Of a stretch of 43,173 nucleotides of DNA, positions 22,217 through 24,563 are shown in pieces. Each line of letters opens with the position of its first letter. Positions within the stretch are counted from its first letter, which is position 1. Source of the stretch: Methanobrevibacter sp. (lineage in GTDB: Archaea; Methanobacteriota; Methanobacteria; Methanobacteriales; Methanobacteriaceae); assembly GCF_017410345.1 (NCBI RefSeq), contig NZ_JAFQQZ010000005.1:1-43173 (forward strand), read 5' to 3'. The position numbers were made by a program, and so were the translations under genes. The notes below the pieces were generated by a model. The model ran no database searches. It was not told the DNA's origin and saw nothing but the letters and a program-made list of their open reading frames with translations.

Positions 22217-23473
22217 ATGAATCAGGAAACTTTAGATAAAGCACAGAAATTGATGGATTATACAGATGGAAAAATATGCAATCATTGCCTTGGACGCAAG
22301 TTTTCAGACTGTGTAGAAGGAAATGGAAATGAAGAGAGAGGAATCAGGATAAGGGAAGCCCTTGGCCTTGAAGCCTATGTTCCAAATGAAGATGATAAAT
22401 GTGCAATCTGCTATGACTTGTTTGAAGACATCGACAATAAGGTTCTTGATTTGGTGAATGAGAAGATAGAACTCCTCAAAGTGGAATTCGACACATTTGT
22501 CGTAGGATGCAAACTGCCTAAGGAGATAGTTGAAAAGGACCAGGAAATCAGCGACGAATTCGATTTTGATGTGGAGATAATCAAAAGGGAAGTGAACCGT
22601 GAAATAGGCAAGCTCCTTGAAGCAAACCTTGAGCAGAATGTTGACTTTGATGGCGAGGATGTTCTTGTGATGGTTGATTTCAGAAGAATCCTAAGGGAAG
22701 ACATTGAAAATCCAATCAAGGTAAGGCTTCAAATCAATCCGATATTCATTGAAGGAAGATACAGAAAGCTTGTAAGAGGCATCCCTCAAACCAAATGGCC
22801 ATGCACAAAATGCAAAGGCAGAGGCTGTGAGGAATGCAATTTCACAGGAAAGCAGTACCCTGAATCCGTTGAGGAACTTTTATCTGAAGTGGTATTGAAG
22901 CACACAAATGGATACGAAGCCAAGTTCCATGGTGCAGGAAGGGAAGACATTGACGTAAGGATGCTAGGTACAGGAAGGCCATTCGTTCTTGAGATAAAGG
23001 AGCCTAAGATAAGAAAGATAGACCTTGAAAAAATAGCTGAAGAGGTAACTGAAACAGCAAAGGGAAAGACCGAATACCTGAACCTCAAGTTTACGGAAAG
23101 AAAGAGAAAGGCTGAAATCAAGGTATCCTCTCCAGACACATATAAAGTCTATAGGGCACTTGTAAAATGTGAAGACGACATCAAGGAAGAGGATTTGGAA
23201 AAGCTTCAATCCCTCCATATGATTCAGCAAAGAACTCCTATAAGAGTCTCCCACAGAAGGGCAGACAAGATCAGAGAAAAGGAAGTCAAGAACATTGAAA
23301 CTGAATTCATTGATTCAAAAACATTTGAAATGATCATCAAGACAGAGGGCGGATTGTACATCAAGGAGCTCATCTCAAGCGATGAGGGAAGGTCCAATCC
23401 AAGTGTTACTGAAGTTCTTGGCACACAAGCAATCTGTGCAGAATTGGATGTGATTGAAGTTGGAATCAAATGA
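22217..23473 (+). CDS. pus10: tRNA pseudouridine synthase Pus10
   Basis: 418 residues. An N-terminal zinc-binding part with CNHCLGRKF and CAICYDLF, a second cysteine cluster CTKCKGRGCEECNFTG near residue 194, and the catalytic block GREDIDVRMLGTGRPFVLEI near residue 242, where the first D of DIDVRMLG is the expected nucleophile. Pus10 makes pseudouridine 54 and 55 in the T-loop of archaeal tRNAs. A C-terminal part with RTPIRVSHRRADKIREKEV is also typical. GAGGAATT precedes ATG 22217. Confidence 0.95.
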   Translation: MNQETLDKAQKLMDYTDGKICNHCLGRKFSDCVEGNGNEERGIRIREALGLEAYVPNEDDKCAICYDLFEDIDNKVLDLVNEKIELLKVEFDTFVVGCKLPKEIVEKDQEISDEFDFDVEIIKREVNREIGKLLEANLEQNVDFDGEDVLVMVDFRRILREDIENPIKVRLQINPIFIEGRYRKLVRGIPQTKWPCTKCKGRGCEECNFTGKQYPESVEELLSEVVLKHTNGYEAKFHGAGREDIDVRMLGTGRPFVLEIKEPKIRKIDLEKIAEEVTETAKGKTEYLNLKFTERKRKAEIKVSSPDTYKVYRALVKCEDDIKEEDLEKLQSLHMIQQRTPIRVSHRRADKIREKEVKNIETEFIDSKTFEMIIKTEGGLYIKELISSDEGRSNPSVTEVLGTQAICAELDVIEVGIK

Positions 23474-23922
23474 TTTCAACAATACTGCAATTTTTAAAAT
23501 TAAATTATAATCATTTCATTAAACTATTTTTTTACTTATAAAATACTTATAAAAGCATAACATTTATTAACATCTTAAAATATATAGTTTATTACTATCA
23601 AAAATAGAAGATTGGATTATTGCTGAAATCCAGTCGCTAAAATTTATGATGTTTTATAATATTTTTGATATTTTTTTCTTTCAACATATAAAATTTAGAT
23701 ATGTTCTAATCAATTAAACCTACGGTTAGGGCTAAGTCTAAATGAGACTTATATGTTGGCTTTTACAATGAATAGCTAAACCGAAGGGCTTAAGTCATAA
23801 TTTTCAACTTCAACAACTTTAAGAAGTTCCAATTATGCAGCTACTAGCTATTTAAAAAGATATAAAATGATGGGTTTTATATTTTTACTACACAATTAAT
23901 TAAATATTAAAGAGGTATAAAA
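23474..23922 (+). promoter_or_regulatory. Intergenic region Pus10 to L21e
   Basis: 449 nt. The first 100 nt are A/T rich with TATA-like sequences (23538-23556 and 23581-23587). The middle is the candidate RNA listed separately. The last 40 nt hold TATAAAA (23861-23867) at a distance suiting an L21e start near 23890, and an AGAGGT ribosome site before the L21e ATG. Confidence 0.45.
23609..23886 (+). ncRNA. Candidate structured non-coding RNA upstream of L21e
   Basis: No protein frame is present, and base composition is less A/T-biased than in neighbouring gaps. Hairpins: 23611-23618 with 23627-23634 (8 bp with one G-U); 23723-23729 with 23776-23783 (CGGTTAG/CTAAACCG, one bulge), enclosing AAGTCT/AGACTT (23734-23739 and 23745-23750); 23796-23802 with 23831-23837 plus 23806-23811 with 23823-23828 (13 bp around a small internal loop); 23860-23867 with 23875-23882 followed by TTTTT, terminator-like. 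A TATATAG box at 23581 predicts a start near 23609, at the foot of the first hairpin. It does not resemble RNase P, SRP RNA or tRNA as I know them. It may instead be part of the L21e leader, and the last hairpin overlaps a TATAAAA that may be the L21e promoter. Confidence 0.45.
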
Positions 23923-24213
23923 ATGCAAAGATCCAGAGGATTTAAAAGTAGAAGTAGAAAAAAATTGACCAAAAGAGTAAGACCTGGTCGTTCCAACCCA
24001 ATCACCAGAAGAATTCAACAATTCGAAAACGGTGATATGGTTCACATTATCATCGACCCAAGTATCCAAAAAGGCCAACCTCATTCCAGATTCCATGGAA
24101 AAACCGCTAAAGTAGTGGACAAAAAAGGTAAAGCTTACATACTTGCATTAAAAGATGGTAATAAAGCAAAAGAATTAATCGTTACTCCAGAACACTTAAA
24201 ATTACAAGAGTGA
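23923..24213 (+). CDS. rpl21e: 50S ribosomal protein L21e
   Basis: 96 residues. [23 protein letters not shown] at the start (read in parts) and the [20 protein letters not shown] and [16 protein letters not shown] blocks are diagnostic of archaeal L21e. AGAGGT precedes ATG. The stop overlaps or nearly abuts the Rpo4 gene, the standard archaeal pair. Confidence 0.96.
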
Positions 24214-24218
24214 GTACA

Positions 24219-24563
24219 ATGATTGGGAAAAAAACATTAGAAACAGAACCAATACCTGCAGCTAAAGTAAAGGAAATTCTTGAAGAGTTCTCCGAAAAGC
24301 ATGAGCTCAGCTATGAGCAAAACTTGACTTTGGCTCATGTAACTAATCTAAACAAACTTTCCCTTGAAGAAACCGAAAAGTTAATCGAAGAGCTTGAAGC
24401 TTATGTCGACCACAAACAGGCTGTTCGCGTAGCAGACATTGTGCCACAGGACATGGCTGACTTAAGATTAATTTTCGCTAAAGAAAGAAACGCTCCTTCA
24501 AACGATGAAATGAAGGAAATTCTTGAAATCTTAGAAAAATACGATATTAAAGAAGATGAATAA
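24219..24563 (+). CDS. rpoF: DNA-directed RNA polymerase subunit Rpo4 (F)
   Basis: 114 residues from the ATG at 24219 (MIGKKTLETEPIPAAKVKEIL), the usual N-terminus in Methanobacteriales. A GTG at 24210 is in frame and overlaps the L21e stop by 4 nt, so it remains a possible start. The helical body with RVADIVPQDMADLRLIFAKER and a C-terminal EILEILEKYDI is typical. Rpo4 pairs with Rpo7 to form the stalk of the polymerase, which binds nascent RNA. Confidence 0.93.
   Translation: MIGKKTLETEPIPAAKVKEILEEFSEKHELSYEQNLTLAHVTNLNKLSLEETEKLIEELEAYVDHKQAVRVADIVPQDMADLRLIFAKERNAPSNDEMKEILEILEKYDIKEDE

Follow-up and report, generated by a model that had tools for sequence, protein, structure and literature searches.

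What kind of RNA, if any, lies between pus10, which ends at position 23473, and rpl21e, which starts at 23923? We read and folded this intergenic gap in the window, the whole 43,173-nucleotide stretch of Methanobrevibacter sp. DNA that was analysed. A first-pass annotation, made from the sequence alone, had placed several hairpins here from 23609 onwards and had read them either as a stand-alone transcript of about 275 nt or as a very long structured leader of the eL21 gene. The RNA from 23595 to 23925 folded at −73.2 kcal/mol. Its dinucleotide shuffles gave −51.2 (SD 4.7), and none of the 100 folded as well (z = −4.7); distant homologues folded at z = −4.2 and −3.7. The hairpins were thus found where they had been placed, and their stems covary (see below). 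The element is longer than proposed; it begins near 23596 with an 11-bp helix (23596–23606/23660–23670) that surrounds the hairpin from which the annotation had started, here called P1a.

The fold has three domains, all conserved, and ends in a hairpin, P4 (Table 1). The 5' domain is a three-way junction, P1/P1a/P1b, in which P1a showed the paired exchanges GGAUU/AAUCC, GAAUU/AAUUC and AGAUU/AAUCU in the alignment. In one homologue (L013:900-1248, minus strand) the P1b arm has grown into a long hairpin relative to the window, a lineage-specific stem extension. A U7 tract (23671–23678) stands directly 3' of P1, and most close relatives have six or seven U there. Domain 2 (P2) is an extended hairpin that displays UAAACCUA in its loop. 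In P3, the unpaired UAC (23842–23844) is as invariant as the internal-loop strand that it faces (15/15 identical), and the UGAUGGG loop of P4 is likewise identical in 15/15 sequences.

Table 1. Positions of the element's parts and neighbouring features in the window, with one leader of the sister genus.
Feature	Position	Strand	Evidence
Archaeal TATA box TTTATTAAC/T, presumed promoter of leader and rpl21e-rpoF	23563–23571	+	conserved
Predicted transcription start; P1 begins here	23590–23596	+	inferred from TATA spacing
P1 5' strand, 11 bp with 23660–23670	23596–23606	+	minimum-energy fold of domain 1; 15/15 homologues
P1a hairpin, 9 bp, loop AUUGCUGA (conserved UGCUGWAAUC)	23610–23635	+	minimum-energy fold; 15/15 homologues
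P1 3' strand, then U7 tract (speculatively a pause or attenuation site)	23660–23678	+	
Domain 2: P2a 23682–23691/23749–23758; P2b 23693–23700/23736–23743; P2c 23703–23711/23724–23732	23682–23758	+	
P2c loop AAUUAAACCUAC, conserved UAAACC(C)UA motif	23712–23723	+	core invariant in 15 sequences
P3 5' strand GAAUAGCUA, partner 23845–23853	23770–23778	+	100% paired
Internal-loop strand AACCGAAGG, facing UAC 23842–23844; candidate protein-binding site	23779–23787	+	15/15 identical
P3a: GCU/AGC pairs and cap hairpin varying in sequence and length (here 23796–23802/23831–23837)	23788–23841	+	
P3 3' strand UAGCUAUUU	23845–23853	+	
P4 hairpin, 13 bp, UGAUGGG loop at 23868–23874	23856–23886	+	100% paired
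Shine-Dalgarno GAGGU of rpl21e	23912–23916	+	kept in all homologues
rpl21e, ribosomal protein eL21 (96 aa)	23923–24213	+	Pfam Ribosomal_L21e, E = 1.8e-33
rpoF (Rpb4), next operon gene	24219–24563	+	Pfam RNA_pol_Rpb4, E = 4e-11
Type B leader example, genus g9	L048:2876-3000		

A DNA search of 139 genomes of the family recovered the region from 11 congeners at 81–94% identity; a further four matched over part of it. We then used a covariance model, R1, which covers the 3' two thirds of the element (194 positions, 52 pairs). Of the 19 genus members, 15 had one R1 match each and no more, and there were no matches in genomes of other genera among 151 of the order. The four genus members that R1 missed are 62–73% complete and also have no detectable eL21 gene in their assemblies; therefore, the RNA precedes eL21 wherever eL21 was assembled in the genus. 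That is, a structure of about 300 nt was found directly 5' of rpl21e, in single copy, in all 15 congeners with DNA upstream of eL21, and every one of them runs into a Shine-Dalgarno sequence, an ATG and eL21.

In the alignment of these 15 sequences, which was fitted to R1 and is hence biased towards the model, 98.9% of 754 base-pair cells were paired, and 16 of the 52 pairs (25 cells) had changed on both sides. Shuffled partners gave 2.7 ± 1.4 such pairs (0 of 500 as high) and slid partners gave 0–3. The two-sided changes fell in domain 2 (10 of 27 pairs), P3 (3 of 9, with 100% pairing) and P4 (3 of 13). An alignment of the 12 closest relatives made from sequence only had five two-sided pairs versus 1.2 expected. 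The most informative exchanges came from the diverged homologues L013, L014 and L016, for example GU, CG and AU at the base of P3, and also in P4. Conservation by chance, or from a cause at the DNA level with no functional RNA behind it, would fit the many positions that are invariant within the close group, but it is contradicted by the paired changes, which occur in all but one of the six helices counted and across three diverged lineages, and by the shuffled and slid controls; we regard it as extremely improbable. We concluded that the hairpins are real and under evolutionary constraint, and that the evolutionary signature is unusually clear for Archaea. Conservation and covariation in relatives, the check that had been proposed for these hairpins, were both present.

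The element matched no known family. Rfam 15 at the gathering score had no match for it, nor for the type B and Methanosphaera leaders described below; a permissive Rfam scan of the window element returned nothing credible, and the ARAGORN model found no tRNA or tmRNA in it. The first-pass annotation had recognised no known family here and had suggested an Rfam search, the outcome of which agreed with it. Neither is an eL21 leader among those of the 2020 survey of Eckert and Weinberg (PMC7247131). The structured RNA is thus real, conserved and previously uncatalogued.

To which transcript does it belong? The conserved TATA box, TTTATTAAC, stands about 30 nt 5' of the first paired base, with A-rich sequence 5' of it; TTTATTAA (23563–23570) was identical in 15/15 congeners. 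It is a different box from the one previously noted 26 nt before the first hairpin, which is not the conserved one. Because of the position of the conserved box, and with the usual archaeal TATA-to-start distances, the first nucleotide would lie near 23590–23596, giving a predicted leader of about 325 nt from start to AUG; a literature search for published transcription start sites of Methanobrevibacter found none. The conserved block in the alignment is continuous from the TATA box through the Shine-Dalgarno sequence, and no second conserved promoter was found between P4 and the Shine-Dalgarno sequence in the 15 homologues. We infer that the leader and rpl21e-rpoF are transcribed as one mRNA, of which the structured RNA is most likely the 5' part. 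Nearly all of the family members that we examined have a comparable TATA box 158–385 nt 5' of eL21, and a long eL21 leader therefore appears to be a family trait.

The alternative that a stand-alone non-coding RNA is encoded by chance between pus10 and rpl21e could draw on the element's own promoter, its compact structure and, in the window, a U-run behind the 13-bp hairpin. The hairpin, which had been described as terminator-like, is conserved, but the U-run is missing from L008 by deletion and is only four U long in L009–L012. With the run absent or short in 5 of 15 homologues and a terminator scan that found none, we rejected P4 as a terminator. Moreover, in 15/15 genomes the RNA was located only directly 5' of eL21, and no conserved rpl21e promoter lies 3' of it. 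Because a second conserved promoter is missing and the presumed terminator's U-run is not conserved, we read the element as a leader and not as a free RNA, for which the chances are very slim. Its position (15/15 directly 5' of rpl21e, single copy) and covariation-supported structure (16 two-sided pairs, 98.9% paired) are those looked for in a ribosomal leader, and the conserved 3' terminator looked for in a stand-alone sRNA was absent. Of the two earlier readings, the long structured eL21 leader thus gained support and the 275-nt stand-alone transcript is disfavoured. A transcription attenuator, in which P1 with U7, or P4 with its U-run, would stop transcription early unless a factor acts, is suggested by the six to seven U or so behind P1 in most homologues. 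That tract is broken in L016 and shifted in L013 and L014, however, U-tracts are frequent in such AT-rich DNA, and the terminator scan was negative, so that attenuation seems quite unlikely.

If the element is a leader, to what does it respond? Among the genes checked, eL21 is the sole ribosomal protein encoded in the operon, and for ribosomal leaders the only regulated r-protein gene is taken to name the ligand (Eckert and Weinberg, PMC7247131). Applied to the rpl21e operon, this rule points to eL21. Because eL21 is encoded by the only r-protein gene downstream, the structure covaries and its occurrence is restricted to one lineage, as for published leaders, autogenous control by eL21 would be the most likely function. 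A leader of the rpl21e-rpoF mRNA with autogenous control by eL21 is, as a whole, the explanation that we consider probable. Under this proposal, surplus eL21, unclaimed by 23S rRNA, would bind the invariant leader loops, and bound eL21 would lower expression of its own gene. It might do so by hindering initiation at the Shine-Dalgarno sequence, which lies about 25 nt 3' of P4, or by causing the leader to be terminated early or to decay.

The same rpl21e leader might instead answer to temperature, to a small molecule or to a different RNA-binding protein, L7Ae or RpoE/RpoF being examples. Conservation of the unpaired loops AACCGAAGG, UAAACCUA and UGAUGGG is as tight as in the core of a riboswitch or a protein-binding site. 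In addition, rpoF is the next gene, and Methanococcus maripaludis co-transcribes rpl21e with rpoF but tunes them separately by an internal terminator (PMC10450193). Weighing against such a ligand, the downstream gene is an r-protein gene, as is usual for autogenous leaders; the 9/3 internal loop, on inspection, does not have the kink-turn GA.AG layout; and no Rfam riboswitch matched. We therefore judge a factor other than eL21 to be fairly unlikely.

Several candidate features of the fold were rejected. Sequestration of the Shine-Dalgarno sequence by U-rich leader segments had a best complementarity of 10 bp, which 71 of 300 shuffles equalled, and the partner segment differed between lineages. 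Kissing between the P4 loop (GGG) and the P2c loop (CCU or CCC) was possible everywhere over 3–4 bp, which is too short for a claim. A kink-turn in P3 was set aside on inspection, as the loop has no GA opposite the bulge.

Ribosomal leaders often imitate the rRNA site of their ligand, although this is not obligatory. Because 23S genes were not found in the window's genome and its relatives, we compared the leader with a haloarchaeal (Haloarcula) 23S from a plasmid record and with E. coli 23S; no convincing imitation of the eL21 site was found in either. The E. coli helix AAUAGCU...AGCUAUU resembles P3 and stands just 5' of the sequence that we take to be helix 38. A P3-like helix was absent from the corresponding place in Haloarcula 23S, so imitation of the eL21 rRNA site by the leader is unproven. 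The sequence AAACCGAAG is present in Haloarcula 23S at about nt 238–246, presumably in domain I. This match is also unproven, because rpL21 binds domains II and V (PMC3707915). Archaeal 23S in the viral collection amounted to a 3' end fragment or nothing; one IMG/VR contig (L081:1-200) carries a 3' fragment of archaeal/eukaryotic-type 23S-like rRNA fused to unrelated sequence.

Other eL21 leaders were found in relatives. In a sister genus (g9), 58 of 67 genomes have a different, shorter and nearly invariant leader, type B, as a single copy; in one g9 genome it lies on two contigs. All 30 copies examined (loci L098–L127) were directly 5' of eL21. Type B forms a nested hairpin, CUAUGUUA/UAACAUAG with CUAGUAU/AUACUAG, plus a GUAGCUGA bulge. 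It shares with the window type the eL21 gene, single copy, structure and an AUGGG loop; it differs in that its hairpin is short and nested and its UGGG loop could pair with CCCA 5' of the Shine-Dalgarno sequence, a possible pseudoknot, and the two types show no obvious homology.

In Methanosphaera, the eL21 leader contained 3–5 copies of AAACCUA, compared with 0.04–0.18 in shuffles (0 of 1000 as high). These repeats were seen 5' of eL21 in L069:2640-3000, L065, L064 and L063; some copies are in hairpin loops, and in two species they are spaced at about 26–30 nt near the start codon. Runs of at least three spaced copies were rare elsewhere in those genomes. Most leaders of the window type also have AAACCUA, in the loop of P2c. 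In the M. filiformis group, the eL21 leaders of L066 and L067 have a hairpin, UAGCUAUU...AAUAGCUA, that consists of the two strands of P3 in reversed order, and a degenerate form of it lies 5' of eL21 in L055. Control of eL21 by its own product might extend throughout the Methanobacteriaceae, through long leaders repeatedly rebuilt for the same protein in at least three unrelated architectures (the window type, the sister-genus pseudoknot type and the Methanosphaera AAACCUA repeats), with loop-borne AAACCUA as the recognised element in the window type and Methanosphaera; we offer this only tentatively and hold it to be rather doubtful.

Among described systems, the eL15 leader of Euryarchaeota (PMC7247131) is likewise a predicted structured leader of a single archaeal/eukaryotic-type L-protein gene with covariation. 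Its protein is another one, and the conserved nucleotides of its motif resemble a bulged-G module (PMC7247131), whereas the eL21 leader has AACCGAAGG/UAC, UAAACCUA and UGAUGGG as its conserved loops and is confined to one genus. The archaeal S15 and L4 leaders (PMC7247131) are also lineage-restricted r-leader candidates, but they precede other genes, and the S15 leaders have a plausible rRNA imitation (PMC7247131), which is unproven for the eL21 leader. In L7Ae/kink-turn autoregulation in archaea (PMC5539422), a ribosomal protein is likewise proposed to control translation, through its binding to a structured RNA; the gene there is another one, and the internal loop of the eL21 leader has, on inspection, no kink-turn consensus.

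The class to which this RNA probably belongs, ribosomal leaders, is already known. Within the literature and databases searched, the novelty lies in the protein, in the architecture and in the turnover seen between genera. If confirmed, the eL21 leader would provide a defined, testable RNA–protein pair in rumen and gut methanogens, and, since sister genera have replaced it by other architectures, one could observe directly how regulatory RNAs turn over while the protein stays fixed.
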